From positions 1,871,501 to 1,935,500 of the forward strand of contig NZ_CP045372.1 of the NCBI RefSeq assembly GCF_009363555.1: DNA of 64,000 bases. The letters are read 5' to 3'. This document shows positions 11,347 through 35,970 of the stretch, piece after piece. The first letter of the stretch is position 1. Each line of letters opens with the position of its first letter. The notes below the pieces were generated by a model. That model searched no databases, was not told the DNA's origin, and saw only the letters and a program-made list of their open reading frames with translations. The stretch comes from Sulfitobacter sp. THAF37. Its GTDB lineage: Bacteria; Pseudomonadota; Alphaproteobacteria; Rhodobacterales; Rhodobacteraceae. The position numbers were made by a program, and so were the translations under genes.

Positions 11347-11436
11347 GGAGACGTGGCCGAGTGGTCGAAGGCGCTCCCCTGCTAAGGGAGTAGGCCCGGA
11401 AGGGTCTCGAGGGTTCGAATCCCTTCGTCTCCGCCA
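11347..11436 (+). tRNA. tRNA-Ser(GCT)
   Basis: 90 nt folding as a class II tRNA: acceptor GGAGACG (11347-11353) pairs with CGTCTCC (11426-11432), followed by G and an encoded CCA. The anticodon stem CTCCC/GGGAG encloses loop CTGCTAA with anticodon GCT, reading AGC/AGU serine codons. A long variable arm (TAGGCCCGGAAGGGTCTC) and T-arm GGGTTCGAATCCC follow. This intact copy is the left junction of the island; its 3' 68 nt are duplicated at 35900. Confidence 0.97.
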
Positions 11437-12644: not shown

Positions 12645-12717
12645 GGACTTGCCTGATTCATTGTTCATTGATAATCGCGCGGCAAAAACAAAACTAGAAC
12701 ATTCTCAGGCGGACACC

Positions 12718-16804: not shown

Positions 16805-19333
16805 TTACGGCAGCTGATCAGGTTCCAGGACATAGACCTTCTTGCCTTGCGGGAAGTCCGGAAGACGCTTGTTCTTCTGCCAGCGCCGGCCATCCTTGTC
16901 GTGGTGGAGAGCTCCGTGTTTCCTTGCAATCCGCAGCACCAGATCAGTGTTGTGATCGCCGCAGACTTCGTTCCGGAATGCTTCCGGCAGAATGTAGTAG
17001 AGGGGACCCTTGCCCTGGTCTTCCCGCTCTTCAAAGTATCCACAGCGATCTCGGACGGCAAAGCCATCAGCCCGGCTCGGCACGTCTTCCGCCTGGCCAT
17101 CGTCACTGCCGCAAATTCTCTCGAAGCGGGTCCGGCCATGAAGTTCGAAGAACGCCTTCAGGTTTTTGAGAGCCTTCATTTCCTCATGAGATCCACCACC
17201 GCCACGCAATTTCTTCCAGGCCCGGAAGCACGTGGCAGCGGCCTTGATGCCAGCTGTGCTCTGCCAGGGCAAAATACCCATGTCACTGGCAATTGAGGCC
17301 GCAGCAGCCACCATGCCAAACTGCGCAGCGACACGCCGGACCTGCGGATCGTCCCCCTCTTCGACGAGGCTGTCGATCATCATTTGAATGATCCCCTCCG
17401 CTTCTAGCGAGACCTCGGCCTGCCGGTTAATGATCGCTTCGACGAATGCAGGCCCTGCATGACCGTAGTGCGTCTTCGCAAGCCCGGAGAGAGCTTCAGC
17501 AAACGCGCCGGAGCTATCAAAACCGGCCAGATTCTCGAAGCTTTGATCTTCCTCGTATTCGATCGGGATATCGATCATTCTCACAGCCTGGCCACCAGTC
17601 ATGCGGGTCCGCCCCTGACCGCTTTCCACCTGATCCGCTGCAGCATTCTTTCCGCTCGACAGGACGATGAGACGCGTCTGCAGTGTCGCCCGCGCCGATC
17701 CGTCTCGGTTCGCGCGCCCCTTCCCATGACCGTTGGCGAAGAGATAGTTGAGCTGGCTGACCAGTTCCGGCGTGGCGGACGTCATCTCATCCAGCGCCAG
17801 CAGCAAGTCATTGTGCTCGCCCAGGAGGGCCTCGGCAAAATTGTCAGTCAAGTGCCAGCTACGCACGAAGCCGTCTTTGCCGCCACCACCCCAGACGGAA
17901 CCCCCAAGCATCAGGGCGGTCGTCTTTCCGCGCGAGCTCTCGCCGAAGAAATTGAACCCGTTGCCCTGGCGATCCATGATCCTAAGCAAAGGAGGCGCGA
18001 AGGCAGCACTGATCGCGAAGCACGCGCGGCTGTTGTTTTCGGCATAACGCGCCAGCTCGCGCCAACCTTCCAACGTGCCCGAGCGTCTCAGAAAATGCTG
18101 CCGCACGCCCATGTCGAGCATGAGATCCTGTGCGGCATCTTCCGCCAAGACATTCCCTTGCGGAAGGGCAAAGCTGCCGCCGTGCCAGCCGGGGCGTGTC
18201 GCCACATGCACGATGGGCCCGTGCATCGCGTAGCCGATAAATTCAGCTTGAGCCTGCCGCCCAGCCCGGTCCTGCGGCACGATTGCTCCGGAAGCCGCGA
18301 GAACCTCGCGGAGTTCACGACCGTCGCCCGCGAGCAGGCGCGCGGGAAGCGAAACCGTCTCCCACTGCTGCAGCGGTGTGCGCAGGGCAATCAGGAAACC
18401 CCAACCGGGTCCGGTATCGTCCGTTCTTGTGCGGCCCAGGACGACACACGGCGAGCCAGCAAAAATATCAATCGGATTGCCGCGGCGGTCCACATCCTGC
18501 TTGATCACCCCATGGCTCGAAAGCGCGAAGGGCCCCCCGATCTTGTCAGCGTCGATGCCGAACAGATCCATCACCTCCTGTTGAATCTGATCCCGCTTAC
18601 CCTCGGTCGATGTGCTCTTGCCGATCGCGAGAGCGACCTCCTCCGCCGATGCCAGCACTGCTGAATCTTCCAGCAGCTGGGAAAAGCGCGTTTCCTCAAG
18701 CCCGAGGGCAATCGCATCAGCGATGTCGAACCCCGACTCGGCCTCGTAGCCGCAGCGTTCGGCAAGGCCCCTCATGTCCAGCCTTCGGACAGAACCTGCC
18801 CCAACTTCCTTCAGCACCGAAACCAGGGTGTCGACCGCTGTCGCGCCGGCGTCGTCAAGATCGGGAAGGATGAGGACGGAACGGTCGGCAAGCGGGCTGA
18901 AATCCGTCTTGGTGATGGCCTTGCACCCGCCGGACCATGTGACGCTCGCCCATGACGTGAATGCCGCTGCTGCATCCGCACATTTCTCGCCTTCAGAAAT
19001 CAGGACGGTCTTGCCGGGATTGTCCAGAACGTCTGCCAGACGATAGAGAGGGCGGGAAACGGGCAACGCCTTCGCGTACCAGTCGCGCATGCCTTCAGGC
19101 GTCTGCCAGACCGAGAGGGGCAGGATCTGCTTGCCCTTGCTCGTCTCGGTCCGCTTGACGACAAAGGCACGCCGGCCATCCGCGTTATGGTAAACGTAGG
19201 CCGCCGTCGGGGAGACACCACCCGACGTCAGGTCGGGCTCCGGGAAATCGTCGGGGATCGCGGGCACCGGCTTGGAGCCCTCCGGGACCGTGCGCAGGAC
19301 GCGGGCAAGGTGCTTGAGATAAGGACGGGTCAT
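16805..19333 (-). CDS. TOPRIM-DUF927 primase-helicase
   Basis: 842 aa. N-terminal TOPRIM-like fold: VLISEGEKCADAAAAF (about 110-125) and VLILPDLDDAG (about 153-163) supply the catalytic Glu and Asp-x-Asp. A DUF927 helicase domain follows, with Walker A GESSRGKTT (about 465-473) and Walker B DLLLALDEMTSA. This is the replication protein architecture of integrative elements and satellites. ATGA-coupled to the upstream CHC2-like ORF, so the primase is split into two polypeptides. It probably supports replication of the excised island. Confidence 0.85.
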   Translation of the reverse strand: MTRPYLKHLARVLRTVPEGSKPVPAIPDDFPEPDLTSGGVSPTAAYVYHNADGRRAFVVKRTETSKGKQILPLSVWQTPEGMRDWYAKALPVSRPLYRLADVLDNPGKTVLISEGEKCADAAAAFTSWASVTWSGGCKAITKTDFSPLADRSVLILPDLDDAGATAVDTLVSVLKEVGAGSVRRLDMRGLAERCGYEAESGFDIADAIALGLEETRFSQLLEDSAVLASAEEVALAIGKSTSTEGKRDQIQQEVMDLFGIDADKIGGPFALSSHGVIKQDVDRRGNPIDIFAGSPCVVLGRTRTDDTGPGWGFLIALRTPLQQWETVSLPARLLAGDGRELREVLAASGAIVPQDRAGRQAQAEFIGYAMHGPIVHVATRPGWHGGSFALPQGNVLAEDAAQDLMLDMGVRQHFLRRSGTLEGWRELARYAENNSRACFAISAAFAPPLLRIMDRQGNGFNFFGESSRGKTTALMLGGSVWGGGGKDGFVRSWHLTDNFAEALLGEHNDLLLALDEMTSATPELVSQLNYLFANGHGKGRANRDGSARATLQTRLIVLSSGKNAAADQVESGQGRTRMTGGQAVRMIDIPIEYEEDQSFENLAGFDSSGAFAEALSGLAKTHYGHAGPAFVEAIINRQAEVSLEAEGIIQMMIDSLVEEGDDPQVRRVAAQFGMVAAAASIASDMGILPWQSTAGIKAAATCFRAWKKLRGGGGSHEEMKALKNLKAFFELHGRTRFERICGSDDGQAEDVPSRADGFAVRDRCGYFEEREDQGKGPLYYILPEAFRNEVCGDHNTDLVLRIARKHGALHHDKDGRRWQKNKRLPDFPQGKKVYVLEPDQLP

Positions 19334-19701
19334 CCGCGCACCCCCAGCTTCTCGGCCAGCGTACGGGCTGCCTCGATCTGGCTGACGCCATGGATGTAAG
19401 CGTAAAACGAGATGATGTCGCCCCCAGCGTCGCCTGTCGCAAAATCCGACCAGACCCCCTTGCGGATGTTGATTGCGAAAGAGCCGATATTCTTGTCGGC
19501 GCGGACGGGATTGAGCGCGAAAAGATTCTCGCCGCTCAGCCGCGTCTTGCCGAGCCAGCTTTCCGCGAGCTGGCGGAGCTGGCCGGCCGCGGCCTCGTTC
19601 ACGCGCTGGAAGATGTTATTCGTGTCGCGGGTCGTGACGCTGGCCTTGCGCGGCGCGGACGAACGCTTGGGGCGGCGGATGCCGATTTCGGACGGGTGCA
19701 T
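19330..19701 (-). CDS. CHC2-like primase N-terminal protein lacking zinc cysteines
   Basis: 123 aa. GENLFALNPVRADKNIGSFAI followed by GVWSDFATGDAGGDIISFYAYIHG matches the fold and order of DnaG-type zinc-binding domains (Arg/Asp-Lys-x-Pro-Ser-Phe, then Asp-Phe-x-x-Gly-x-Gly-Gly-Asp), but none of the CHC2 cysteines is present. It starts the operon and overlaps the TOPRIM-DUF927 gene by 4 bp. Inferred role: template recognition for the primase. Confidence 0.65.
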   Translation of the reverse strand: MHPSEIGIRRPKRSSAPRKASVTTRDTNNIFQRVNEAAAGQLRQLAESWLGKTRLSGENLFALNPVRADKNIGSFAINIRKGVWSDFATGDAGGDIISFYAYIHGVSQIEAARTLAEKLGVRG

Positions 19702-20489: not shown

Positions 20490-20831
20490 TTAATCAGCCT
20501 CATACCCTGCGGCGGTGAATTAGTTGTAGCACTCCTCTTCGGAGAAGAGGTCGCAGACTTGGCCGACGGCTGCGCAGAGTTGGTCAAAGGTTAGCGCGGT
20601 CGCTTTCCTTATCAGCGCCTTCAGTATCGAGAAAGCCAATTCGATCGGATTGAGGTCGGGTGAGTATGGCGGCAGGAAGAGGAATCTAGCGCCGATTCTG
20701 CTCATGGCTGCTGGGGCGCCGGGCGCCTTGGGGCTCGACGAATTGTCGAGAATGACCACGCCGCCTTCGCGTAGCGTCGGGAGCGTGATCTGTGGTCGGC
20801 GGTTGGCGCGCTTGTTACAGAACACGCTCAT
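20490..20831 (-). pseudogene. IS630-family transposase remnant (C-terminal part, nonsense-mutated)
   Basis: The frame encodes the C-terminal third of an IS630 transposase: VVILDN supplies the second catalytic Asp and PPYSPDLNPIELAFSILK the Glu. The N-terminal half, with the first catalytic Asp, is missing. A TAA at 20520-20522 interrupts the end: beyond it the frame continues FTAAGYEAD and a second stop, the usual IS630 C-terminus, so a Tyr codon has apparently mutated. Its first ATG overlaps the stop of the helicase gene, so the remnant is fused to the 3' end of that gene. Confidence 0.85.
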
Positions 20832-23800
20832 GCATTCGGCACGGATCGCGTGTGATCCACTGCTGTTAGAAGTCTGCGGGACGCCTCGAACGTATCGATT
20901 AGATAGAGCGAATGGCCTGGATCCAGATGCTCCGCTAGGCGGTTTGTCAGCATGGCTCGGTCCCAGAACGGATGAACAATCGCGAAAGCTTCTTTATGTC
21001 CCGCCTCGTCGCAGAGCACCATAGGCAGAGCATTCGGACCGATTTGATCGATACGCCGGGTCGAAGGTGACAGACGGCGCAGATCCTCGGCGGCGCGGTC
21101 GGCAAGCGTCCTCCAATCCGCAAGCTCCGGTACCGAGAAGTCTCCGTTAAGGCCGACGTCATGGGCAGAGTCGTTCAGACAGCGCAGGAAGCTCATCCCG
21201 AGACGCCAGTCCAGAAGGCCGTGATAGTGCCGGTTCCCGTATCTCTGGATGCAATGATAGCAAGCCAGGCCGCAGTCCCGACGGTGGGCTTTAGCTTGGA
21301 AACGGGAGGTCAGTGGGTCTTCCAGATCGTTCAGCATCGACTGAATTAGGGTAGCGACGAAGGGGCGGTCTCCGATGCTGGTTGCAAGCCGACGGCAGAA
21401 GCCTGCACCGTTCACCAGTACATCCGCGATCTGGAGAACTGGGCGATCATCGTTTGATCGTGGCTCCAGAGGCTCGAATTCGTCGGGATCGATGTCGAAG
21501 GCCAATGAGGCACGCTGGATCAGCATGTGGGTCGCGCTGATCGCCGCCGCCCGTAGGCTGGTTAAGGTGACATCTTTCCTGTTACCGCCAATCCGGTTGA
21601 GGGCTAGACCAGGGGCCATACGCTGCATCGTGATCGTCAGAGCATCTGTGCGCTTGCGCGAGAAGAGTCGGACGGAACGGGGGGCGAACCCGTCCTGCTC
21701 CTCAAACCATGAGCCGGACTGACGGGAGGTGGCCTCCAAGATTGCCTGATGCGGTACCCGCGAGACCTTCTGCGGCTTTCCACCTTCCATCTCAAACCAC
21801 GTCTGTCCCTGTGTCCGGGAAACAAGCGGATAAGGTTCCGGCGTGCCATCCTTCCCGAGCGGACCGCGATTCCGCCGGATGATCTGTGCTTCCGACCCCG
21901 ACGAAAGGATCATGTTGGCACCGGGTACATCCTTGGCGGTCATCGGCGAAATGATGGAGGCAGTTTCCCGGCGGAGCAGCGGGGGAAACTGTTCCATTCC
22001 GTCCGATTTCTGCGGCTTGAAATCCGTCCGGAAGGCAGCAGGGGAATGATAGGTCTCCACGGCTTCGCCGGAGAGAGGATTGCCGCATTCGGCGCAGGTC
22101 AGCTCGGAAATGTTCTGACCGGCTTGAATCATCGTGATACCATTGCACTTCTCGCAATCCGCAATCGTCTGCGTCTCGCTCCACCACTCCTTCAGTGGGG
22201 CGGGTGTAATTTCCCAGTCTCCATGCTTGCCTCGTCGCAACAGGCCTAGTGGCGACGTGAAGCCGACGGGGGTATGCAACATTTTGTCTCGTGCAAGCGT
22301 CTGACCTGGGGCGAATTCGTAGATCGCGAGATCAATTTCTCGGTCCACGGTGTCCCAGCCGGCGGCATCTCGAGACGAGGCCTTCGGGCCGACGTAAAGA
22401 TTGCGCACGCGGGTTGGCATGCCGAACATCGGCAACAGCCCCGCTTCGGCGAGATGCTCTGCAAGGCCCTCGGGCGCTGCCCTGCCTGCTGGTGGACGCG
22501 TGGCCTCGATGGCGTCGATCAGCTCTTTCGGGGACAGGCTCGTCAGGAAGTCGGCTGCGCGGCCTGGGTAGCCGGCGCCGATGCTGGCGGCCAGCCGGTC
22601 TCGTGTGTCGATGGAGCGGCTGAGCGCCTGGAGCAGCTGGTCCTGCCAGCCGTTCTCTGTTGCGAAATAGGAGTCGACCGGGACATATTCGCCGTGGATG
22701 TCGTGCAGCATGTCGCCGGGATAGCCTTCGCCCAGCGCCGCACGCAGGCCCGCGAATGCCGCCGCAAGCCAGCCCTTTCGTATCAGGCGCCGCCCGATAT
22801 CAAGGTGATCCTGCGTCAGGAACGGTGGTGGCGGGGCATCTCCGGTGATGGCCTTCGGATTGCGGAAGTAGTGCAGGTCATGGCTGCGCCCGCGGCAGAG
22901 AGTTAGCGCGATCGAATATGCCTGACCACGCCGCCCCGCTCGCCCGACCCGTTGTTGGTAGTTGAAACGCTGGGGCGGCATGTTTGCTTGATAGACGGCC
23001 TGTAGGGCGCCGATGTCGATACCAACTTCCATGGTCGTGGTCACTGACAGCATGTCGATCTCTCTTGCCCGTCGGATAAGGCTATCGGCAGCCGCATCAA
23101 CGAAGATCCCCTTGAAGCGCCTCAACCGGTCGGCAGGCGAGCCAGTTTGTCCCGTCAATTCCTCGCACCGAAGCCGGAAGACACCCTGATCTTCGCTCAA
23201 TGCGGTCTCGAGCCTACGCGAGATGTAGTTGCGCTTCCGAATATCTCGGGCCTGGGCATTAGCCTCCTTCGGGAGCGGATCGTGACATCGGGTGCAAACT
23301 CCGAACCCTTTGTGCAGATGAACGCGATGGCAGGTCTGGCATTCGAAGACCGGTGCATCGGGAGGAACGACCTTTACAAAAAGCCGCTCGATCCGGATCA
23401 TGCCGCCGCTGTGCCCGAGGCCCTTCAACTCATCCAGTAGGCCGGTGATCTCGTCCTCCGGCAGGGCGAGGGCGTTGAGGAAGGCGCGAACGCGACCGCG
23501 GCTCGGGATATCCCGCGCCTCGTGCCACTCCTTGAAGTTATCCTGGACCCACTTGTTGGCCTGAACCCTGTAGCTGTCGGCCAGGACGCGCAGCAGGGCA
23601 TCGAGCCGGTCACTACGAGGACCCGCTTTAGCCGTCAGGCAGGGATAGCCGAGTCCGGTTTCCTCCAGCGCGAAGTAGTTGCGGGAGAAAATTACATCCT
23701 CAACCAGTGTGCGTTGTTCACCTGCAACCTGATTGCGCGCAGCGCTCTTATCCTGGACGTCCACGTTCCGCGCCCAAGTGGGTACGCCATCGGGTTCATC

Positions 23801-26668
23801 GAAAAGCTCGAACCAGTCGTAGAAGCGCCGCGAGCCGTTCTCTCCTCCCTTCAGGCGTTCGACGCCGGTGTCGTCCGTTGGGTGCATGCCGATGCGGACC
23901 ATGCCTGCAAGCAGCCGCCCTGCCGCTGGTTTGCCGGAGTCGGCGACCTCGATGACTTCGGACAGCGGGATACGATCGGAATCTCTTGTGTTTCGCGCCT
24001 GTCTGATATGCTCATTCAGGTCATCCACGAGTTCATCATCGCCGGCGTCCTCAGCCTCGTCCCGCATCCGACGCAAGCTCTTGACGTCCAACACCGGAGT
24101 GCTTGCGATGGCTCGCATTTCCTCCACGAGCAGGCGCCGGCGGATGTCATCATGATGCCCACGCTCAACGTTGATGGCCGCGCGCGCTGCATCCTGTCGA
24201 CTGTCCGAAAACACAACAGCCTTGGGCTGGGTGCCGGACCTCTTCAGGAGTTCGAGCAGTTCAGAAGCTAGAAGTTGCGAGGTTTTGGCGAAACCGGTGC
24301 GGAAGCTACGGATCGGTGACTTGCGAAATTTCTCACTGCGCCGGAAATAGTCGGCTCCACAACATGGGCAACCATTGGGGCCAGCGGAACGTGGACGCTG
24401 GGCGGCTTGCCCCCTCAGATTGAAGATGCGACCTGGAATGCATCCGTCTTGCGCGGTCGGCGCCTTATCGAGAAGCTGGGCATTGGACGGATCCAGCCAG
24501 GCTTCGGGCCACCGCTCATCTTCATTTTCACCTGCTTGCACTTCCGTGAGCCTGGGGAGGAACAGCACAAACTGCTGATGGCTCAGGGCTTCGTAATCTG
24601 TTTCGCCGCCAATGTCTGGCAGTCCTTCCAGATCGCTCGTCGTCGGTAGAATTTCCGTCCCAGCCGTAAAATCTGATGTCTTGCCACGTCTTCCGCCGAT
24701 GAATTCGGCGAAGCAAACCTCGCAGTAGTAGAGCTCGAACATCCTCTGTGTTCCGCGCGAGGTCTCCGCATGGCTCGCGCCGCGCTCCACAGTCAGGTTC
24801 TCGTACTCCACCTTGCCTGCATCATTCAGCGTCGGGCTTAGAAATAGACCTTCAAGGTTCCGAAGAAAGAGATGTAGCCGGAAGGCCGGGACATCGTTGG
24901 GTAGATCGTCTTGTCCGTCTCCCATCCCTCGCAGGATGGTTAGTCCGCGCAAAGCCAGAAGATCCGCCGTCGTTCCAAAGAGAGACTCGCTGATCTGTCT
25001 GGCCGGAGCGGCTTTCAATGCGCCGCTCTTGTCCACACAGGCGGCGGCCAGACGCCGTCCAGCCTGCGTGACGACATCCGTGAAGGCGCCGCTCGGCGTT
25101 CCCAATGCGCGTCCGCAGCGAGACACGATCTCGTCTAGGGCCGGTTCCTCGCCCGGCCTGTATATCAGCGCTCCGGTGAAGTGCCCTTCGGGGCATAGGA
25201 GACGCGCCAGATCCGAGAAGGGGACCGAATCGAGAAGCCCAGCCCCCCGCTCCGGAAGTTGCATCGTGCCGGGAACCACGCTGCCTGCCCAGTCTTCAGG
25301 ACTCGTCGCTCCGTTCTCGGCCCCGGCGGAATAGGTGCCGAAGGGACCGAAAAAATCAAACAGGTACTTTAGGCTTTGCTCCCGTTCGGCGCCCTCGAGT
25401 GGCAGCGAGGCAGAAGAGGAGAGGATACGTAGTTTGTGCCGGAGCTCTGGTCGGTCCAGTCCGAGACGGGTTATCAACAGGCGCATCAGCGCCGCGGCTT
25501 CGGTCCCTGCTGAGCCGCGGATCAGATGGAGCTCGTCGAGAACGAGATAGAAATAAGCATCCTCGTCCTGCGCCAGCCAGTCTCGGGTGGCGTCAAAAAT
25601 CGGCGCCTCGACCTCACGCGATAACATGGCGCTGAGCATCGAGACGTTCGTGACCAGGATGTCCGGCGGCGTCTGTTGCATGTCCCAACGGCAAACGAGT
25701 TCTGCCCCGTCGATAGACGGGAACAGGTAGCGCGTAGGATCCTGGTCCGGATTCTGCTGATCGTAAGTGCGGGCGAGTTCCTGATCCGCAGCGATTTCTC
25801 GCAGCATCCGAGCGGCCTTGCGTTTACGCGTCCGCGCCGCGTTTTTCTCACCTTGATCAGTCCGCCGTGGGTGGCTCAGATGGCCGGGAACTGGCGTTGC
25901 AGAGGTGTAGCGCCCGAAGAAGATCCGGTTGCCGCGCGCACGCCGGTCCAATGTCGCTTTCGCCTCGGGGCTATCGAGCGTTTTGCGCAGGCGGACCATC
26001 TGATCCTCAACCAGTGCGTTCATTGGATAGAGTAGCAAAGCACGCAACGCCGCAGGTCTTCCTGTCCCTTCCGCCCACCTATGCGCAGTGAATTCGGGGG
26101 GCTTCTGCTGCGTCTTGCCATCCGGCATAATTGTCTCGTTGCGGGAGGCCTTCCACCAATCGGTATGGCAATAACCGGCCGCCGGCGCTGGCCAGCGGGT
26201 CGCCTCTGCCGTGATGCTGGCGAGGATTGGTAATAGGAATGACTCTGTCTTACCCGAACCGGTGCCCGAAGTGACGATGCCGGGTTGTCCGGGGCGGACG
26301 CCGCGGGTGAGCATTTCTACCTGATGGCTATAGGGCGTAAAACGGGAGCGGCGTGCCAATCGGCCATCACTATCGTCACCCGGAAAGAGGCCAGAAAGGA
26401 ACATCTCCACGATCGCCACGCGCTCCTCCTCCGAGAAATCGCACAACGGGGATCCAGCTCCAGCCGTCACCATATCCTCGAAGCTCAAATCGGAGGCACG
26501 GTAGCGCGGCACTGGCTCGAGAAAGGGCTCCGGCATAAGCCCATCCGGTGCCGCAAGCAGCTCTCGGCGGGCTGCTGCGAGATCGGATCGGCCTATCCGG
26601 AAGGCTGTGTCGAGGTAGGACAGAAATAGGTTCAAGATCTCGCCATGGGCGCCGAGGGGATCAAGCAT
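20828..26668 (-). CDS. Giant DEAD/H-box helicase with zinc-ribbon and DUF1998-type C-terminus, DruE-like
   Basis: 1946 aa; AAAGGAG upstream. SF2 motifs: Walker A SGTGSGKT (134-141), Ia YPMNALVEDQ, II DELH (378-381), III SSSASL, V TTTMEVGIDIGALQAV, VI QQRVGRAGRRGQ. Two Cys4 clusters (CQTCHRVH...CTRCH and CEKCNGIT...CAECGNPL) and a C-terminal CGLACYHCIQRYGNRHYHG cluster typify DUF1998/MZB helicases such as DruE (Druantia), and also DpdJ and DISARM helicases. Inferred role: translocation on invading DNA in anti-phage defence. Last gene of the operon, overlapping the coiled-coil gene by 8 bp. An IS630 remnant abuts the stop, so the last residues may not be original. Confidence 0.85.
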   Translation of the reverse strand: MLDPLGAHGEILNLFLSYLDTAFRIGRSDLAAARRELLAAPDGLMPEPFLEPVPRYRASDLSFEDMVTAGAGSPLCDFSEEERVAIVEMFLSGLFPGDDSDGRLARRSRFTPYSHQVEMLTRGVRPGQPGIVTSGTGSGKTESFLLPILASITAEATRWPAPAAGYCHTDWWKASRNETIMPDGKTQQKPPEFTAHRWAEGTGRPAALRALLLYPMNALVEDQMVRLRKTLDSPEAKATLDRRARGNRIFFGRYTSATPVPGHLSHPRRTDQGEKNAARTRKRKAARMLREIAADQELARTYDQQNPDQDPTRYLFPSIDGAELVCRWDMQQTPPDILVTNVSMLSAMLSREVEAPIFDATRDWLAQDEDAYFYLVLDELHLIRGSAGTEAAALMRLLITRLGLDRPELRHKLRILSSSASLPLEGAEREQSLKYLFDFFGPFGTYSAGAENGATSPEDWAGSVVPGTMQLPERGAGLLDSVPFSDLARLLCPEGHFTGALIYRPGEEPALDEIVSRCGRALGTPSGAFTDVVTQAGRRLAAACVDKSGALKAAPARQISESLFGTTADLLALRGLTILRGMGDGQDDLPNDVPAFRLHLFLRNLEGLFLSPTLNDAGKVEYENLTVERGASHAETSRGTQRMFELYYCEVCFAEFIGGRRGKTSDFTAGTEILPTTSDLEGLPDIGGETDYEALSHQQFVLFLPRLTEVQAGENEDERWPEAWLDPSNAQLLDKAPTAQDGCIPGRIFNLRGQAAQRPRSAGPNGCPCCGADYFRRSEKFRKSPIRSFRTGFAKTSQLLASELLELLKRSGTQPKAVVFSDSRQDAARAAINVERGHHDDIRRRLLVEEMRAIASTPVLDVKSLRRMRDEAEDAGDDELVDDLNEHIRQARNTRDSDRIPLSEVIEVADSGKPAAGRLLAGMVRIGMHPTDDTGVERLKGGENGSRRFYDWFELFDEPDGVPTWARNVDVQDKSAARNQVAGEQRTLVEDVIFSRNYFALEETGLGYPCLTAKAGPRSDRLDALLRVLADSYRVQANKWVQDNFKEWHEARDIPSRGRVRAFLNALALPEDEITGLLDELKGLGHSGGMIRIERLFVKVVPPDAPVFECQTCHRVHLHKGFGVCTRCHDPLPKEANAQARDIRKRNYISRRLETALSEDQGVFRLRCEELTGQTGSPADRLRRFKGIFVDAAADSLIRRAREIDMLSVTTTMEVGIDIGALQAVYQANMPPQRFNYQQRVGRAGRRGQAYSIALTLCRGRSHDLHYFRNPKAITGDAPPPPFLTQDHLDIGRRLIRKGWLAAAFAGLRAALGEGYPGDMLHDIHGEYVPVDSYFATENGWQDQLLQALSRSIDTRDRLAASIGAGYPGRAADFLTSLSPKELIDAIEATRPPAGRAAPEGLAEHLAEAGLLPMFGMPTRVRNLYVGPKASSRDAAGWDTVDREIDLAIYEFAPGQTLARDKMLHTPVGFTSPLGLLRRGKHGDWEITPAPLKEWWSETQTIADCEKCNGITMIQAGQNISELTCAECGNPLSGEAVETYHSPAAFRTDFKPQKSDGMEQFPPLLRRETASIISPMTAKDVPGANMILSSGSEAQIIRRNRGPLGKDGTPEPYPLVSRTQGQTWFEMEGGKPQKVSRVPHQAILEATSRQSGSWFEEQDGFAPRSVRLFSRKRTDALTITMQRMAPGLALNRIGGNRKDVTLTSLRAAAISATHMLIQRASLAFDIDPDEFEPLEPRSNDDRPVLQIADVLVNGAGFCRRLATSIGDRPFVATLIQSMLNDLEDPLTSRFQAKAHRRDCGLACYHCIQRYGNRHYHGLLDWRLGMSFLRCLNDSAHDVGLNGDFSVPELADWRTLADRAAEDLRRLSPSTRRIDQIGPNALPMVLCDEAGHKEAFAIVHPFWDRAMLTNRLAEHLDPGHSLYLIDTFEASRRLLTAVDHTRSVPNA

Positions 26669-28706
26669 TTTCTTGCTCCTTTAGAAGGCCGTTCAGCCAT
26701 GTCTCACCAGTGCGACGCAATCCGTTCAGTCGTGTCACGCGCGTTGAAATAGTCTCCTCCGACGCGCCAAATAGGCAGGCGGCACGGTGGAGACCGATCT
26801 CGAACGCCAATTCGACGGGCGTCCCAATTTCACTGTCCGCGATACGGTCTTCAAGTGCGTCCTTTTCCAGGAGATCGTGGGGCGCGTGGGGCAGGAAATG
26901 AAGTTGCCGCTCACGTCCCGAAGCCTCTCTCAGCAAGCTCCCCGCCGAGGCAACCCGCAGGGCCGGGGCGAGACAGAGAGCAGACTGGGTCAATTCGGGC
27001 CAAGTCATGCCGTGGTCTGCAGGCCGCGCGGAAAGGCTCATAGCGATCAGTAGGTTGCGGGGGCGCTCCGGGCCGCGCAGAATGTCGAGTAGACTCGGCA
27101 GCCAGAGTTTCATCGGCGCCATGTCGAGCCCATCAAGCCAGAGTAGGTGATACCGCTCAGGTGTGCGCCGCGCTGCCGTCCATGCCATCCGTAGCCCTCC
27201 AGGCTCACCGTTGCCAGGGCGTGTCCAGAGGTCGTCCAGAGCGATTGTGCCGGGGCCGATCACATCGCGGAAGATCTCACCCCCAGTGACTAGACGCGCA
27301 TAGCCCGGCATCATCCGCTCCGCCGCCGGCGTTGGCAAAACAGCACATGCCCCCGAGCGCAGGGCGAGGTCGAAGTATTCGAAATCATCCTCGCTTATGC
27401 CGACCTCGTTCGCGATCCGCTTGAGCTTCTTGGTAAAGTCCTCGATGGAAAGCGGCTCTGCCGCGCCGCGTCGTGGGGCGATCCAGGGGGGAAGGTTCGG
27501 GTCGGTCGGAGTTAGAAGTCTCGCATCAGCACCTACAGCTGACCGGAACCGGTCCAGCATGGCTTCGAAGGTTTCGTCACGCTCCATGCTTGCATCCTCC
27601 AGTACGCCCCCGAGCGCCAATATCTCTTGGGCGATTTGGCTACGGAGTGTGGCCTGTTGCTCGCGCAGCTCATCAGCCTCCCGACGGCAGAGTTCCAGTA
27701 GCGCCTCCTCTTCCTCTAGTATCGCTGCGATCTCGGCACGCCGCGCGACGAGTCCCGCCTCCGCTTCGACCAGTTCCTCCGCAAGCGAGGCCTTCCGGAT
27801 CTCGAGCTCTGACATCTCGGAGGAGAGGGACGCCCGGATCTCCTGCCGCATCCCTTCTTCAAGCTCCCTCGTCCGAGCAACCACGCTGCGTTCCACCTGC
27901 GCGCGCACTTCAGGCGTCTCCAGAAGATGTTCTGCGATCAGTGGAATGGTCGCGACGTGATCTTGGATTCGTCCAATGAAGCCGGTTGTCCAGTCGAGCC
28001 ACTCGGCATCAGCCCACGTCTCTTTCTGGAAGGCTTCCATGGCTACAAGTTGCCGGATGATGTTTTCTTCCTCACGTCGCGATGGACCGCTTGAGCTCTT
28101 CCGGAATTTCTTCAGCAATTCCTCCAGAAGGCTACGGTCATCCAGCCAAACGATGTGCTTGATTTCGATACCGACCGTCTCACCGGGGACCTCTCTCCAA
28201 CGTCCGTTCAGGCGCATGCCCTCGAACAGGCGGTCATCGAATACATGGATCTTGAATGTTCCCGGTTGCGCGACAAGCCTGTTCGTCAGCACATCGAGAG
28301 CAAGTCGGACGGGCACGCATTCGTGCGAGCTCAGAGCCAGGATGAGCTCTTCGGTTCCGTAGGGTAGATCATCAAATCCGGTATCGAGAACCTTGAAACG
28401 GATCTCTTCCAGAGGCACCCCCCGCATATCGATAACCTCGCGAGGGGACGAATGCTGGTCGACGATGAACTGATCTCGTTCAGCATCGACGTGACGTGGG
28501 TTGGGCTTGGAAGTCACGGCAAGATACTGCCCCTTGCGTGCAAGGGCCAAGGATGGCGCAAAGACCTTTCCAAGAGGCGGCAGGAGGCGCTCCATCTCAG
28601 CATTTTGCCAGCCCCCATTCTGTGCGACAGCTTCGCAGATGATCCGGGTGTGATTGCAGGGCTCGTATTCGCAGTAACCGATAAAAAGATTGTCAGACAC
28701 GTTCAT
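26661..28706 (-). CDS. Coiled-coil protein with ATPase-like C-terminus, helicase partner
   Basis: 681 aa from MNVSDNLFIGYCEYEPC; the longer open frame upstream reads the previous gene out of frame. The chosen ATG overlaps the previous stop (ATGA) and has AAGG upstream. Residues about 260-400 are a long charged coiled coil. The C-terminal part has YHLLWLDGLDMAPMKLWLPSLL and PRNLLIAMSLS, like Walker B and sensor-1 of an AAA module, but where a P-loop would be expected there is no GxxxxGK[ST]. Not recognised as a named family; position suggests a structural partner of the helicase. Confidence 0.75.
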   Translation of the reverse strand: MNVSDNLFIGYCEYEPCNHTRIICEAVAQNGGWQNAEMERLLPPLGKVFAPSLALARKGQYLAVTSKPNPRHVDAERDQFIVDQHSSPREVIDMRGVPLEEIRFKVLDTGFDDLPYGTEELILALSSHECVPVRLALDVLTNRLVAQPGTFKIHVFDDRLFEGMRLNGRWREVPGETVGIEIKHIVWLDDRSLLEELLKKFRKSSSGPSRREEENIIRQLVAMEAFQKETWADAEWLDWTTGFIGRIQDHVATIPLIAEHLLETPEVRAQVERSVVARTRELEEGMRQEIRASLSSEMSELEIRKASLAEELVEAEAGLVARRAEIAAILEEEEALLELCRREADELREQQATLRSQIAQEILALGGVLEDASMERDETFEAMLDRFRSAVGADARLLTPTDPNLPPWIAPRRGAAEPLSIEDFTKKLKRIANEVGISEDDFEYFDLALRSGACAVLPTPAAERMMPGYARLVTGGEIFRDVIGPGTIALDDLWTRPGNGEPGGLRMAWTAARRTPERYHLLWLDGLDMAPMKLWLPSLLDILRGPERPRNLLIAMSLSARPADHGMTWPELTQSALCLAPALRVASAGSLLREASGRERQLHFLPHAPHDLLEKDALEDRIADSEIGTPVELAFEIGLHRAACLFGASEETISTRVTRLNGLRRTGETWLNGLLKEQENA

Positions 28707-30238
28707 AGACCTTGATGAAGCAGGTTGGGGCGTAGGCCGCGGCGGCGGGCATCCCCAAAAGAGTGCAGTACGGAACGGGCGGGCCGGCCATGTGCCTGGC
28801 TGCCGGAAAGGGCAGAGCCATAGACATGGCGCAGGGCAGCGAGATCGGTGGCGCTGGCAGGATAGCGATAGCTCCATGTGCCGTCCGCTTGTAGGACGGG
28901 ACCGGTCTGAGCAGCATGCCCACGCCGCAGGAAGATGGCCAGTTCCAAAGGCAGGTGACCGTCCTTGCAGATCCGGCTCAGCCCTTCACCATCCGGCTGG
29001 AATAGAGCGATGTCACTCCGGCGGTGATGTTCAAGGATCGCCGCCACGCGGGACTCAAGCAGTAGGTCGGCGCCCACCCCAGTGAGGCGGTAGATATCCT
29101 GATCGTCATCGCGCCCGAGACGCTCCAGGCGCGCGCCACTGGCCGCAGGGGCGGCCTCTGCAGGCAGGAAATGGCTGTGTTTCTCAGACCATCGACCAAC
29201 CACCTGATGCCCGATCCCCTCCCGGCGATCTGGCAGCCAGCAATCCGGAGCCGCGGCAAGGGGCATCTGATCGGGAACTGTCTCGAAGGCCCATTTGCCA
29301 AAGGTCGCAAGACGGTTCAGCCCGCGCCCTTCGAGGCGGACGAGAGGTGCAGACCAGGGCGCAGACCGGAGCTGCATCATCTTAATGCCGCGTTCGGTCG
29401 ACAGGGCGTTCAGTTTTTCAAGTTCCGCCTCTCCCCAGGCCCCCTCGCAAATCGCGGTGTTCTCCGAGGTCGTGCTGATCTGTGGCGGTAGCAGGCGCCA
29501 TTTCCTGCCCCGCCACGTGCGATTTACATCACGCTCCAGCCAACGCGCCTCCTCCAACGAGCGCAGCACATCCCAGACCATGCGCGTCTCCGGCAGCACG
29601 CGGCAGAGGAGATCGACCACCTCTCCCTCGCTCCGAGCGGCCTTTCCGCGACAGTAGAGCGCTTCCAGTGCGTGGGTCAGGGGAGACTCTAACCCCTTGC
29701 TGTCAGGGGCAGACGCTCTTTCGAACCGCAATGTCGCCACCGGCTGCGTGACATCCGCCTGCATGTCTGTCATCCCCCGCGCCGTGTCTGCCCGGGCGGG
29801 CCACTCCGTCCTCATCGTGCAACGAGGCAGCAGGCGCAGCGGCAGCTCTTCCTGCAGCTCGTCCCGGCTCAGCGTCCAGATGCCATGTATTGGTTTCGGC
29901 GATACGATCCCGAAGACACCGTCCTCCGCAGTCGCCTCGAAGGTCAGGTTTCGCTGCTCCCGCTCTTCTCCCTGCATAGTGACGCGAGGTGGGAGGCTGC
30001 CTGACAGATGCACTGTGGGGAAGTATCCCGGACGACCGAGCAGGTATCCATTGGGCAAACGTATCCCGCCCTCCAGGCGCAGTGGCGGCGGCGTGCTCTC
30101 CGCGATCTGTCGGGCGGCCCCTTTCGGATCCTGCAGAGCGCGCGCCTCCTGCAGGCTCATGGGCCTGGTCGCATGCCAGCCACCGCCCACCGGCACCGTG
30201 GGGCAGGCCGAGAGGATGCGGGGGAGCCGCGTGAGCAA
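28703..30238 (-). CDS. Unknown protein of the helicase operon
   Basis: Up to 511 aa. The start is unclear: a TTG at 30238 without a Shine-Dalgarno, or an ATG at 30160 (MSLQEARALQDPKGAA). The frame is open back to the stop of the upstream gene at 30326 and is the same frame. Features: GGIRLPNGYLLGRPGYFPTVHL, a possible winged-helix region (EGEVVDLLCRVLPETRMVWDVL), TWRGRKWRLLPPQ, and LELAIFLRRGHAAQTGP near the end. No known family recognised. Coupled (ATGA) to the coiled-coil gene. Confidence 0.7.
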   Translation of the reverse strand: MLTRLPRILSACPTVPVGGGWHATRPMSLQEARALQDPKGAARQIAESTPPPLRLEGGIRLPNGYLLGRPGYFPTVHLSGSLPPRVTMQGEEREQRNLTFEATAEDGVFGIVSPKPIHGIWTLSRDELQEELPLRLLPRCTMRTEWPARADTARGMTDMQADVTQPVATLRFERASAPDSKGLESPLTHALEALYCRGKAARSEGEVVDLLCRVLPETRMVWDVLRSLEEARWLERDVNRTWRGRKWRLLPPQISTTSENTAICEGAWGEAELEKLNALSTERGIKMMQLRSAPWSAPLVRLEGRGLNRLATFGKWAFETVPDQMPLAAAPDCWLPDRREGIGHQVVGRWSEKHSHFLPAEAAPAASGARLERLGRDDDQDIYRLTGVGADLLLESRVAAILEHHRRSDIALFQPDGEGLSRICKDGHLPLELAIFLRRGHAAQTGPVLQADGTWSYRYPASATDLAALRHVYGSALSGSQAHGRPARSVLHSFGDARRRGLRPNLLHQGL

Positions 30239-30325
30239 GAGCGTACATAGATCATCGCGCGGAGGGCGGTGTCCGACTGTCCAGGAAGCGCCGCCGGCCT
30301 GCTGGAATAGGACAGCGCCGGAGTT

Positions 30326-31321
30326 TCAAATGGCCTGCACACGGCTGTCGGAAGTCATGTACCTGTGGAGGTCGGCTGTACCGATGTCCCGGGTCCAGAT
30401 CGGCTTGGCAAGATCGGCTTCGCGCATGCCGCGCGCGAGCTGGAGGTCCACCTGGTCGCCGTCCCATCCGGAGAAGACGGCCGTAAGCTGCCACAGCGGC
30501 GCGCGCCGCTTCTCTCCGCTCCGCAGCATGTCCGACGCAATGCTGGAAATCAGTTGCCACGTCGCATTGCCGAAAAGCGCGGCAGGTGCGGCCCGGTAGC
30601 TCTTGTGCAGCTCCCTCACCTCGCTCTTCAGCCATAAGGGAAGCTCCGCTCGGCGGGCATGTATCGCATCGAGCAGAGTGAACCGGTCTTCGAAAGTCCG
30701 TTCCGGAAGGCTCTTCATGACGGCGCGTAGCGCACGACGGTCCACCCAGCTCGGCTTGGCAAGGCGCAAGGCATATCCGATGCGGGTTTCCCGTCCGGGG
30801 TTGGGGAGAACGATCTGGCGCCATGGCTCACCTTGTTGACGCTTCCCATCTACAGCAGACGCAAGAGCGCGCCACATCAGGTTCACGCCGCGGACCCCCT
30901 GTTCACGGTCGCCCCCATCAAGAAGCTCGCCAAGCCGGATACGGAAGTCCTGCGTCGCTCCCGCCCCATGCGACGTGGCCGTGACATGGCAGGTCAGGAT
31001 GAAGAACCGAAGCGCCCTCAGCGCCCGGATACCGTCGCCAGAGGAGGCATCGGGGGGGAAGAAGTTCCGGACATTGTCACGGGTGAACAATCGGCAGAAG
31101 GCTTGGGCGACCTGCTCGGGAGAGAGATCCTCACGACCGATCGCCTGACGCAGCTCTTCTGGAGTCGCATCAACAGATTGCATCGGCGTGTCCCCGTAGG
31201 GCCCCAAGGTCAAGAAATAGTGCCTCTTGAGCTTTTTCTCCCAGAAATGCACGTCTCCGAGAGCGCCGTCCTCGTGTATCGTCGAGGCTTTCTTCGAAAT
31301 CCGGCCTGTTACGACTGCCAC
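30326..31321 (-). CDS. Unknown protein, first ORF of the helicase operon
   Basis: 331 aa, GTG start with a weak ribosome binding site. Helix-rich and basic, with no transmembrane segment or catalytic motif I can name. Recognisable stretches: DVHFWEKKLKRHYFLTLGPYGD, IRALRALRFFILTCHVTATSHG, and KSPPERTFEDRF-like SLPERTFEDRFTLLDAIH. It ends at a TGA beyond which the same frame stays open into the next gene. It may therefore be the N-terminal part of one larger protein. Most of the 400 bp upstream is non-coding and should carry the operon promoter. Confidence 0.65.
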   Translation of the reverse strand: MAVVTGRISKKASTIHEDGALGDVHFWEKKLKRHYFLTLGPYGDTPMQSVDATPEELRQAIGREDLSPEQVAQAFCRLFTRDNVRNFFPPDASSGDGIRALRALRFFILTCHVTATSHGAGATQDFRIRLGELLDGGDREQGVRGVNLMWRALASAVDGKRQQGEPWRQIVLPNPGRETRIGYALRLAKPSWVDRRALRAVMKSLPERTFEDRFTLLDAIHARRAELPLWLKSEVRELHKSYRAAPAALFGNATWQLISSIASDMLRSGEKRRAPLWQLTAVFSGWDGDQVDLQLARGMREADLAKPIWTRDIGTADLHRYMTSDSRVQAI

Positions 31322-31739: not shown

Positions 31740-32153
31740 TCATTTGAGCAAGACGAAACCGCCCGTCCAGCCGCCGACGATTACGAGAAGCGTCAACAAG
31801 CCGCAGACCAGCTCGAAGCTGATCATCTCAAGCGACGCGCCACCGAGCAAAGTGCCTGCGATGAACATGATCACCACCGGAACGAAGTACACGGCAAGGC
31901 CGGCAAACGTCACAGCGATCGGGAAGATACCCGGAATGACGACCCAGCTCTGCCCCACCGACCTGACCCGGAATAGGATGGCGGTGCTGCACGAGCAGAA
32001 GATCAGCATCAGTACAGACCAGCCTGCGTGCCCGAGCAGCCCTCCATGCAGCGCGGACCAGTTGGTGTAGGCGCCGAGCGCACAAATGGGCGCGGCCCAG
32101 CTGACCACGAGGAATAAGATTTTATTGATAAAATTCACAGTTTTGCCTTTCAT
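31740..32153 (-). CDS. Four-helix membrane protein
   Basis: 137 aa with four hydrophobic segments (about 9-27, 39-57, 65-95 and 108-134) and short loops. GYLPGIFPIAV-like VVIPGIFPIAVTFAGLAVYFVPVV lies centrally. No family recognised. Its ATG shares one base with the stop of the AAA+ gene (TAATG), so the two are translationally coupled and probably act together; a membrane effector gated by the ATPase is one possibility. Confidence 0.7.
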   Translation of the reverse strand: MKGKTVNFINKILFLVVSWAAPICALGAYTNWSALHGGLLGHAGWSVLMLIFCSCSTAILFRVRSVGQSWVVIPGIFPIAVTFAGLAVYFVPVVIMFIAGTLLGGASLEMISFELVCGLLTLLVIVGGWTGGFVLLK

Positions 32154-33478
32154 TAGTGCAAGACAGGACGGCGCGAGATCGCCTCAAATTCGTCTTTCAG
32201 GCGACCCAATGCCCGCAGGCTCATGTGCCCAGCCTCGATCCGGAGGCAGACCTCCTCGATTACGTGCGCATCAGCCCCGACAGGGCCGAGCTGGGCGGCT
32301 ACGACCAGCCGAAGCCCTTCTCCCTGGGGGGCGCTTACTTGGAAGATTTTCATCCGGTCCTTGATCGGATCCGGAACCCTGCGGAGATCGTTGGCGGTCG
32401 CAATCCAAGAAATCCAGGAGAGGTCGATGCCCCCCTGCAAATACGGGCACACAAAGTCCCGCGACATATCGCGTTGCAGAAGCGGCAAAAGCGCTTCGAC
32501 AGGGTCTCCGCCGCCATGCGACGTCCCCGCCTTGTCGATCTCATCCAGCACGATCAACGGATTGGCGTGATCGCTGGCACCGAGAGTCCGGACCGGAATT
32601 CCGGGAGAGGAGGACCTCCATACGTACTCAGTTCCGGAAATGTCGAACGCGGAGTTCCGGGCAGACATGTCGATCCGCGCAGTTTTGAGGCCGACAATGT
32701 CGCCGAGCAACCGAGCGATGTGGGTCTTCCCGCAACTAGGAGGGCCTACAAGCAACATCGGCGGAAAGCCGACTCTCCTCCACTCATCGTCAAGATTTAG
32801 TAGCTGATGCTCCCAGAGCCACTGGATGGGCTCCGCCAACCAGGGGGCGGCGACGTACAACTCGGAGAAAGCCGAGTCGACTTCGCGCCGGTCTTCCCAG
32901 GCCTTGATCAAGTATTTGACCGACAGACGCTTCCGGATTTCGCTGCGACCGCGCTCATCTTTGTCCTGGACAGAGTTGCTGGGCGGGGCGGTGTAGATCG
33001 TGATTTTATCGGGATCGAGCGCTTTAACCGGATTGAGATCCGGATTGCCAAGCCAGTCCAGCGCCCCTCCGTCAATTTCGCGGTGCTGCTGTTCCGCAAA
33101 CGCATCAAGTCGTCGATCCCGAAGATCGCCGATAATCCAGTCAAGAGGCTTCCTGGACGCCCATTTCCGGAGATGCACGAATTTATACAAGCTGCGGCCG
33201 CCGTTCGGAAGCTTGCTATTCAGCCACGCCCAGCTGTCGATCACATTGAGCAACGCCCGGTTTTCGATGTCTCCGAGCTCGGCGGCAACGGCTCGGGACA
33301 GCCTCGGGGACTGCCAAACTTGGTGCTTTTCCCGGACCTGTTGTTCGCGGCTCAGGGTGCGCGACGGAACGACATCCTTCAGTTCGTCATCCGGGATGCC
33401 ATACTTTGCCCGGAAAAGAGCAAACGCGATGCTCCGGGCGTGCTGACAGAATGGCGAGATCGGGTACTTCTTGGACAT
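32153..33478 (-). CDS. AAA+ ATPase, Lon-like core
   Basis: 441 aa; AAGGGGGAT upstream. Walker A GPPSCGKT (245-252), Walker B LIVLDEID (308-315), sensor-1 TAND (361-364) and a likely arginine finger in DPIKDRM. The AAA core resembles that of Lon, but there is no protease domain, and the 240-residue N-terminal region is unlike the Lon substrate domain (SWAWLNSKLPNGGRSLYKFVH). Coupled to the membrane-protein gene. A match to the NotI site GCGGCCGC lies inside it at 33194-33201. Confidence 0.85.
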   Translation of the reverse strand: MSKKYPISPFCQHARSIAFALFRAKYGIPDDELKDVVPSRTLSREQQVREKHQVWQSPRLSRAVAAELGDIENRALLNVIDSWAWLNSKLPNGGRSLYKFVHLRKWASRKPLDWIIGDLRDRRLDAFAEQQHREIDGGALDWLGNPDLNPVKALDPDKITIYTAPPSNSVQDKDERGRSEIRKRLSVKYLIKAWEDRREVDSAFSELYVAAPWLAEPIQWLWEHQLLNLDDEWRRVGFPPMLLVGPPSCGKTHIARLLGDIVGLKTARIDMSARNSAFDISGTEYVWRSSSPGIPVRTLGASDHANPLIVLDEIDKAGTSHGGGDPVEALLPLLQRDMSRDFVCPYLQGGIDLSWISWIATANDLRRVPDPIKDRMKIFQVSAPQGEGLRLVVAAQLGPVGADAHVIEEVCLRIEAGHMSLRALGRLKDEFEAISRRPVLH

Positions 33479-34122: not shown

Positions 34123-34572
34123 ATGAGCCGAGATCAAGATAACCACTACGACCCGGAACTTTTTGATGGCCCCGATCAGCATGATCAGGCGCTGTCCGAC
34201 CTCTTTGTGCCGCAGCTTTTCCGAGAGGCGCTGGAGAGGGCGGAACTCACTCAGTCCGATCTTGCTCGCAGAACCGGTCTGAAAAAGGACGCGATCAGCC
34301 GCTATGCGAACGGCCGGACGCCTATCCCTGATCACAAGCTTATCGCGATCGCGCAGGCGCTTGGGACCCAGCCTTCGAAGATCGTGCCCAAGCGGCGGAA
34401 CCTGGACGGCATCCCGCCGCGTAGGCCGGACGATCCTGCGTTTACGATACGGCCATCCCCGGAACCAGGATTGGTCCGGCTGGAGATCTCAGCTGACATT
34501 GAACTTGAAGTAGCGACGAAGATCGTCGCGATGATGAGCCGGAAGAAACCGCATGACGAAGACGACGACTGA
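34123..34572 (+). CDS. XRE-family transcriptional regulator
   Basis: 149 aa. Helix-turn-helix LTQSDLARRTGLKKDAISRYANGRTPIPDHKLIAIAQALG (about 40-80) is of the Cro/C1 type. The C-terminal half, rich in Pro and ending in an acidic tail (KKPHDEDDD), is not recognised. Start MSRDQDNHYD at 34123, with GGAG upstream; the longer open frame starts inside the promoter. It overlaps the integrase gene by 20 bp, so it likely controls integration and excision through the operator in its promoter. Confidence 0.9.
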   Translation: MSRDQDNHYDPELFDGPDQHDQALSDLFVPQLFREALERAELTQSDLARRTGLKKDAISRYANGRTPIPDHKLIAIAQALGTQPSKIVPKRRNLDGIPPRRPDDPAFTIRPSPEPGLVRLEISADIELEVATKIVAMMSRKKPHDEDDD

Positions 34573-35647
34573 AGATAGGGCCCCGTACCTGGTCTGGCCG
34601 AAAGGCAAGGCCAGCTGGCAGATCCGGGACAAACGTCGCTACATCTCGACCGGGGCAACCCGGAAGTCGGACGCCGACGCCGCGCTGATCGACTACATCA
34701 AGCGGAAAGACGAGGGCGCGAACAAAGATAACGCCAGCGCGATGGCGTCGACGACTCTTCGACATGTTCTGGATGTCTGGGCAGACAAAAGGAAGAGTGA
34801 GAACCCCGCGACTTGGGCGCGGAAGTGGCGATATACGTACAAGATCATCTACGGGAAGTCCGGGAAACTCCTTCTGACCGCCGTCGACCAGAAATGGGCG
34901 GACTGGTACGAGCGTGAGCGTTATTGCGACGGCGTCGAGGAATCGACGGTCAGGCAAGAGCTTGCGACCGTCATGTCAGCCTGGAGGCTCGCCAGGAAGT
35001 CCAGCCCGCCGCTGACTGGCTTGCCCGTTCCCGAGTTCGACCTACCCCCTGCCTCCGAGCCGAGGGAGCACTTCCTGACCCGCAGCGAAGCGGACCGGCT
35101 TATCAAAGCTGCTGACGCCGACTATCTGGGCCTGTTCATTCGCGTCTGCCTTGCCACTGGAGGACGGCATTCCGCCGTGCTTGGGTTGACTTGGAGCCGT
35201 GTGGACCTCGATGCGGGCACTATCGACCTTCGAGACAGGCCTGATCGGTCGGCCCCGGTTGAGCGCGATGAGCGCGGACGGAGGAAGCGATCCGTGCGAC
35301 AGAAGCCGCGGGCCCAGGTCCGCGTCGAGGGCGTCATCCTCGACGAGCTGAGGGCGGCGCAGGAGCGGGCCGCATCCCCTTTTGTCATCGAGCACTCCGG
35401 AAAGGGCCTGGGATCGGTCCACCGAGGATTCAAGGCCGCGGTTGAGCGTGCTGGCTTGGATCCGGACACGATCACGCCGCACGTGCTGCGCCACAGTGCC
35501 ATCACCTGGTTGATGCAAGCGGGCGAGGACATCTTCAAAGTGGCGGGCTTCGCGGGCCACACATCGACCAGGATGATCGAGCGGGTCTACGGACACCACC
35601 ACCCCGAGTATCAGACATCCATCGCAAAGCGCCTGGCGCAGCGCTGA
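34553..35647 (+). CDS. int: Tyrosine recombinase / island integrase
   Basis: 364 aa. Catalytic residues in order: Arg205 (ATGGRHSAVLGL), Lys in RSVRQKPRAQV (about 251), His310 and Arg313 (HVLRHSAITWL), His336 (FAGHTS), nucleophile Tyr346 (MIERVYGHHHPEY). The N-terminal SAM-like core-binding domain spans about 65-155. It reads toward attR and ends 253 bp from it, the standard position for a tRNA-targeting integrase. Translationally coupled to the XRE gene by 20-bp overlap. It should catalyse recombination between the 71-bp repeats; no excisionase was identified. Confidence 0.95.
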   Translation: MTKTTTEDRAPYLVWPKGKASWQIRDKRRYISTGATRKSDADAALIDYIKRKDEGANKDNASAMASTTLRHVLDVWADKRKSENPATWARKWRYTYKIIYGKSGKLLLTAVDQKWADWYERERYCDGVEESTVRQELATVMSAWRLARKSSPPLTGLPVPEFDLPPASEPREHFLTRSEADRLIKAADADYLGLFIRVCLATGGRHSAVLGLTWSRVDLDAGTIDLRDRPDRSAPVERDERGRRKRSVRQKPRAQVRVEGVILDELRAAQERAASPFVIEHSGKGLGSVHRGFKAAVERAGLDPDTITPHVLRHSAITWLMQAGEDIFKVAGFAGHTSTRMIERVYGHHHPEYQTSIAKRLAQR

Positions 35648-35682: not shown

Positions 35683-35899
35683 GCTGTCAGGTTGCAAGGG
35701 AGCAGCCCTGCGACCGCGTGGTAACATTCCGCCGGATTTCACCTCTACAGAAGCGAAATATCCGCCCCAAAAGGCTTCGCTCGCGTAGAGCTTTACGAGC
35801 CGGAATCGCCATCTGAAGCCAAGAACGTATTGGAAAAACAATTGCCTAGAGGGAGTATTCCGCCATTGCGGGCGATGAGGCCATGGGCTGAGATACCGC

Positions 35900-35970
35900 A
35901 GGCGCTCCCCTGCTAAGGGAGTAGGCCCGGAAGGGTCTCGAGGGTTCGAATCCCTTCGTCTCCGCCACAA
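35900..35970 (+). repeat. attR: 71-bp direct repeat (tRNA-Ser 3' fragment)
   Basis: Exact copy of 11369-11439. The 5' third of the tRNA is absent here (upstream bases diverge at 35899), so it is not a functional tRNA gene. Confidence 0.95.

Follow-up and report, generated by a model that had tools for sequence, protein, structure and literature searches.

A 64,000-nucleotide stretch of Sulfitobacter sp. THAF37 (contig NZ_CP045372.1, positions 1,871,501 to 1,935,500; "the window", whose coordinates are used throughout) very probably carries a Druantia type II locus, druF-druG-druE. In this reading its DruM-like C5 DNA methyltransferase has been displaced to the far side of druE, where it forms a pair with a NotI-family endonuclease, the locus lies on an island in tRNA-Ser(GCT), and the system is probably inactive or impaired in this strain, since druF is interrupted by a stop codon. 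Confidence in the identity of the gene cluster itself is high. The genes concerned are as follows.

20828 to 26668, minus strand: druE, a 1946-amino-acid (aa) YprA-family superfamily 2 (SF2) helicase of Druantia type II, frame intact (PADLOC, Pfam, PDB).
26661 to 28706, minus strand: druG, 681 aa; its middle part has a long helical, coiled-coil-like region (PADLOC DruG2, relatives, structure model).
28703 to 31321, minus strand: druF, an 872-codon gene with one in-frame TGA at 30326-30328 (PADLOC DruF2, intact relatives).
30326 to 31321, minus strand: N-terminal piece of druF, 331 aa, matching positions 10-251 of DruF2 profile PDLC00019.
28703 to 30238, minus strand: C-terminal piece of druF, 511 aa, beginning at the first TTG after the stop and matching positions 393-818 of the same profile.
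12601 to 13848, plus strand: C5 DNA methyltransferase, candidate DruM, convergent with druE; by its relatives it probably starts at 12718 (376 aa) (Pfam DNA_methylase).
11622 to 12644, plus strand: NotI-family restriction endonuclease (PF12183, 331.9 bits).

PADLOC and Pfam profiles were run against 20 of the larger open reading frames (ORFs), 18 on the island and two to its right; PADLOC matches were taken from the best 25 of 31 for the helicase and the best 25 of 64 for the methyltransferase. The helicase matches PADLOC profile DruE2 (PDLC00014) over its full length (positions 1-1923 of 1928, 2074.5 bits), which identifies it as the DruE2-class helicase of type II. The DruE4 model also matches, at 1183 bits, and the DruE3 models reach at most 262.5 bits; matches to DpdJ (54.1 bits), DrmA (27.9 bits) and, more weakly still, DpdF are distant. 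The giant SF2 helicase with cysteine clusters described in the initial annotation, which was made from the sequence without database searches, is borne out: Pfam DEAD and Helicase_C score above their cut-offs and Cys-x2-Cys pairs are present, with MZB slightly under its cut-off (23.6 versus 24.2 bits). Among solved structures there is a full-length relative, PDB 9wae_A (1455.6 bits), along with six further entries, all named just "Helicase"; the codes 9WAE, 9WDS and 9WDU found no mention in the open-licence literature searched.

The same annotation held that the proteins upstream of the helicase resembled nothing known and might represent a new subtype or family. Against Pfam and NCBIfam the three upstream ORFs gave nothing better than E 0.1, a point in favour of that proposal, but in PADLOC the 331- and 511-aa pieces match DruF2 and the third protein matches DruG2 (PDLC00025; 42.3 bits, E 9.3 × 10-12, a partial match, scanned as a 738-aa ORF). 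The annotation had itself named matches of the upstream ORFs to such profiles as the outcome that would make this a known system, and the order F-G-E is common to ten other loci. These matches rule out a new defence family around a DruE-like helicase, to which we attach practically no probability. The broader suggestion, a Druantia-related anti-phage system judged from the helicase and the island, is supported at the level of sequence.

Four coupled minus-strand ORFs had been described, and their location is right, but the number of genes is three, since the 331- and 511-aa ORFs are one frame interrupted by a stop. Tight coupling holds along druF-druG-druE, where successive genes overlap by 4 and 8 nucleotides (nt). 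The 681-aa ORF begins at 28706; the mechanically called ORF is 738 aa long (26661-28877). DruG is present by its profile match and by relatives in the same position, which are 86-88% identical in Paracoccus sp. R12_2 (locus L002) and Falsigemmobacter intermedius (locus L003) and diverged in the plasmid loci described below. No Walker A motif was seen by eye in the DruG sequence, a low-confidence model predicts a helix at residues 265-372, and the best PDB match of its profile, a coiled-coil protein at E 0.015, was uninformative, as was that of DruF (E 0.35).

Loci with the order F-G-E were found in eleven places: the window, Paracoccus, Falsigemmobacter and eight plasmids, all type II by construction, given how they were chosen. 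Identity to the window across the DruF pieces, DruG and DruE is 80-88% in Paracoccus and 78-86% in Falsigemmobacter. Seven of 72,556 plasmid records match DruF and 32 match DruE at 1e-10; the eight plasmid loci compared are all seven with a DruF match plus that of A. tumefaciens F2. In the latter, DruF is assigned from where it lies and from a 21% alignment; for A. pusense and S. medicae a weak tblastn match is added, and DruG in all three is assigned from its place and from alignments at 20-22%. Near druFGE, seven plasmid Druantia II loci (L042-L048) have genes or matches of the Vsr endonuclease type, and none was found among the 20 ORFs scanned in the window. Druantia II is rare and scattered in the samples searched: DruF2 occurs in one of 291 genomes (the window's own) and in two of 390 genomes of the order (its own and Paracoccus), and a DruF protein search of 394 family genomes gave one strong match (its own) and two weak, short ones at 34-35%.

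The DruE2 profile matched 57 of 385 genomes of the class and 10 of 14 controls, mostly as weak helicase matches, and besides the window's own genome only G508 and G538 exceeded 1000 bits. Queries with the window's DruF and DruG (tblastn) found no match in five distant DruE loci (G508, G538 and the weaker L039-L041), which were left out of the count of eleven; the shorter loci L005-L017 showed a DruE match only. According to PADLOC, G538 has a 1063-aa DruF2 immediately before DruE2, and G508 has a separate DruL gene (L037:5244-6158) before a DruE that prefers the DruE4 model, preceded by an unmatched 787-aa gene. DruL models match the C-terminal part of the G538 DruF2 (L038:15454-18645). Judged from these matches, type IV DruF plus DruL looks like a split form of type II DruF.

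Run against the window's genome, the DruF2 profile gave a single match, covering positions 10-818 of 850 at 262.2 bits with one TGA inside, indicating that the druF gene of type II is present and its product interrupted. A frameshift was ruled out, because both ORFs lie in a single frame with one stop; in this span the other two frames of the strand contain 24 and 17 stops. The content of guanine plus cytosine by codon position is alike on either side of the stop. When the C-terminal piece was searched against proteins, with only the 7998 candidates with most common words scored, five relatives emerged: three of 872, 872 and 826 aa at 78-81% identity, the 727-aa protein of Ponticoccus litoralis at 95%, and an 861-aa protein at 44%. 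Aligned with these relatives, the window's two pieces occupy both ends of the uninterrupted proteins. In Paracoccus and Falsigemmobacter an uninterrupted 872-codon druF is followed by druG and a 1944-codon druE. The Ponticoccus litoralis protein, the closest, begins about 145 residues later than those of 872 aa; the gene may have a wrongly assigned start or be damaged as well, and no further copy was found among the 394 family genomes.

The ratio of non-synonymous to synonymous substitution rates (dN/dS) gave no sign of decay around the stop, being similar on its two sides: 0.17 before and 0.23 after against Paracoccus, and 0.20 and 0.22 against Falsigemmobacter. The control pair, Paracoccus and Falsigemmobacter, gave 0.28 and 0.27 for the same two parts of druF, and comparisons with the window gave 0.16-0.19 for druG and 0.125-0.135 for druE. 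This test is weak, because nearly all of the divergence must predate the stop. The stop could have arisen recently, be tolerated or reflect an error. If it were a sequencing or assembly error, the strain would have an intact Druantia type II, an idea that is favoured by there being a single lesion in 872 codons with the frame conserved to either side. We consider it unlikely, as the assembly is good (99.35% complete, 8 contigs) and a lone stop without a change of frame is not typical of errors in long reads, if such were used here.

A second way in which the system could be active is that DruF works as two chains, of 331 and about 511 aa, or that the TGA is recoded. Both pieces are open and show no relaxed constraint, and natural splits are known, as the DruL arrangements of G538 and G508 illustrate. 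However, the natural split falls near the C-terminal quarter, as against codon 332 of 872 here, and the close relatives are single chains. In the structure model, codon 332 would lie within a continuous modelled stretch (residues 291-400, block means above 70) that includes the best-predicted part, 331-400. Beyond the stop, the first start codon is a TTG, with no ribosome-binding site seen before it by eye; as for recoding, only the window's transfer RNAs (tRNAs) were examined, with no search aimed at other recoding elements. Activity by either route appears quite improbable. In the main reading DruF ends early in the window strain, so Druantia II is probably inactive or impaired there.

The restriction-modification pair noted in the initial annotation consists of the NotI-family endonuclease and the C5 methyltransferase. 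The methyltransferase resembles DrmMII, and scores 411.3 bits with the PADLOC MTase_II model versus 367.7 bits with DruM2 (PDLC00033). The same preference is found among canonical DruM proteins, where those of Rhizobium, S. medicae and A. tumefaciens F2 also favour MTase_II and that of A. pusense favours DruM2. With three of four behaving in this way, the score cannot decide whether a protein is DruM. All eleven F-G-E loci show a C5 methyltransferase in the stretch examined. It lies upstream of druF in Rhizobium (with one gene between), Methylobacterium, A. pusense, S. medicae and A. tumefaciens F2, and is convergent beyond druE in Falsigemmobacter (435 nt away), Roseomonas (about 1.8 kb), the window (7.0 kb) and Paracoccus (about 18.8 kb); in S. 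meliloti and Burkholderia it appears as short partial matches only. The genes beyond druE in both near relatives are the same methyltransferase, 81% (Falsigemmobacter, L003) and 83% (Paracoccus, L035) identical to the window's, pairwise identities within the trio being 81-89%. Between druE and the convergent methyltransferase of Roseomonas stand a DUF262 gene and a gene for a HEPN-like nuclease (L044:14938-16682).

A NotI-family gene precedes the methyltransferase in all three of these close loci, with identities to the window's of 60% in Paracoccus and, over the part on the contig before its end cuts the gene, 73% in Falsigemmobacter. Of 198 family genomes, 7 contain relatives of NotI, counting the window's own. 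The pair was rejected as an obligatory Druantia partner: the two closest NotI genomes, G138 and G068, which by handle number fall within the 291-genome DruF search that matched only the window's genome, have no DruF match, so NotI does occur in the absence of Druantia. Common ancestry of the island would account for the linkage, and a functional link is possible. One might speculate that in this Rhodobacterales group Druantia II gave up an adjacent druM and relies on the methyltransferase of the NotI-type restriction-modification pair on the same island, one mark serving both NotI-type cleavage and DruE-type processing, though we regard this as doubtful.

Some observations weigh against the assignment to Druantia type II as set out above. 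The methyltransferase stands apart from druF and scores higher with the general model than with DruM2, as do three of the four canonical DruM proteins. The DruG2 score is low and partial, although the DruG genes of Rhizobium and Roseomonas gave no match whatever at 1e-20. The DruF structure model is of low confidence, with no usable fold match. The order F-G-E is not universal: the two distant loci scoring with DruE2 have no druG between druF or druL and druE. Finally, no mechanism for type II was found in the open-licence literature searched, and the mechanism proposed here is for that reason by analogy.

Excerpts of the published accounts state that type II needs DruM and DruG besides DruE and DruF (PMC8565338), that the DruE of type II belongs to the YprA family of helicases and is encoded together with an inactivated CnuB homologue whose coiled coil is extended, and that types I and II both encode inactivated CnuB homologues and a DruE with a Vsr domain predicted to be inactivated (PMC12458937). 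Druantia III DruE, again from an excerpt, unwinds 3'-overhang and forked DNA (PMC13192584). By analogy, DruE would load onto phage DNA bearing single strands and process it, DruG and DruF may act as sensing or assembly partners, and the methyltransferase would mark host DNA as self; premature ending of DruF probably leaves the system disabled or weakened in the window strain. Confidence in this scheme is moderate at best, its biochemistry being drawn wholly from the Druantia III papers and knowledge of the family, as distinct from the gene identities, their order, the stop and the island, which were found in the window itself.

The integrative island proposed earlier is confirmed by an integrase and by flanking tRNA copies. 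Its remaining features are these.

11347 to 11436, plus strand: tRNA-Ser(GCT), left end of the island (ARAGORN; 85-nt direct repeat).
35876 to 35967, plus strand: second copy of tRNA-Ser(GCT), right end (ARAGORN; repeat copy at 35886-35970).
34553 to 35647, plus strand: tyrosine integrase (PF00589, 66.4 bits).
20520 to 20831, minus strand: remnant of an IS630-type transposase, C-terminal part (partial PF13358 / NF033545), adjoining druE.

The 85-nt direct repeats are 93% identical and spaced 24,531 nt apart, giving an island of 24.5 kb. The left tRNA lies 0.4 kb after the YchF gene (9852-10949), and a tRNA match within 3 kb of ychF on the same contig was found in 4 of 10 same-genus relatives (G001, G003, G009, G010), with a 61-nt partial match in G007. 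No empty site was shown by a search of the right flank in 26 genomes, nor was there a tRNA in the eight relatives' loci examined. A helix-turn-helix gene, like the integrase, lies at the right end, and the IS630 remnant overlaps the end of druE by 4 nt.

At 16805-19701 a DUF927 protein weakly resembles the cassette replicative helicase Cch1 (62 bits, well under cut-off) and is preceded by a DnaG-type zinc finger protein; the two are perhaps the island's own replication module. Paracoccus has a DUF927 relative (34%) between the NotI pair and druE. Upstream of druF, at 32153-33478, an AAA+ ATPase akin to the Lon ATPase core lies beside a small hydrophobic-looking protein. A diverged AAA gene (33% identity) is upstream of druF in Paracoccus, and the Falsigemmobacter contig has 830 nt only before druF. 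Searches with the ATPase do not discriminate, as matches are near-universal (194 of 198 family genomes, the window's own included), many of those listed being the AAA core of Lon-length frames of about 800 aa. The ATPase is unlikely to be a component of the system. A protein of 1011 aa encoded outside the island, at 39259-42294, combines the membrane region of an ABC transporter with a cyclic-nucleotide-binding domain.

Among known systems, Dpd and DISARM share with the locus the distant helicase matches to DpdJ, DrmA and DpdF and a DrmMII-like methyltransferase; none of their further genes was among the matches listed for the 20 scanned ORFs, and the same holds for DruA to DruD of Druantia type I and for DruH of type III. 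Type III (DruH-DruE) resembles the locus in its giant YprA-family SF2 helicase with an MZB/DUF1998-like region. Type IV (DruE, DruF, DruL) is similar in that its DruE4 model matches the window helicase, but type IV lacks DruG and has DruL, whereas the window has DruG, no DruL match was shown for its upstream ORFs, and DruE2 scores far higher. Type II (DruM-DruF-DruG-DruE), which according to an excerpt of PMC12458937 has been named, together with type I, type IV CoCoNuT, agrees with the locus in a full-length DruE2, in DruF2 and DruG2, in the overlapping F-G-E genes and in having a C5 methyltransferase. It differs in that the window's druF is interrupted and the methyltransferase lies beyond druE, convergent and NotI-paired. 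The three close loci, two with druF intact and one with it interrupted, are well suited to studying the role of DruF and the question whether a linked restriction-modification methyltransferase can replace DruM. An in-frame stop can make a known defence operon look new; the window locus is a further example of the Druantia type II already described, with a lesion and a displaced methyltransferase, and not a new family.

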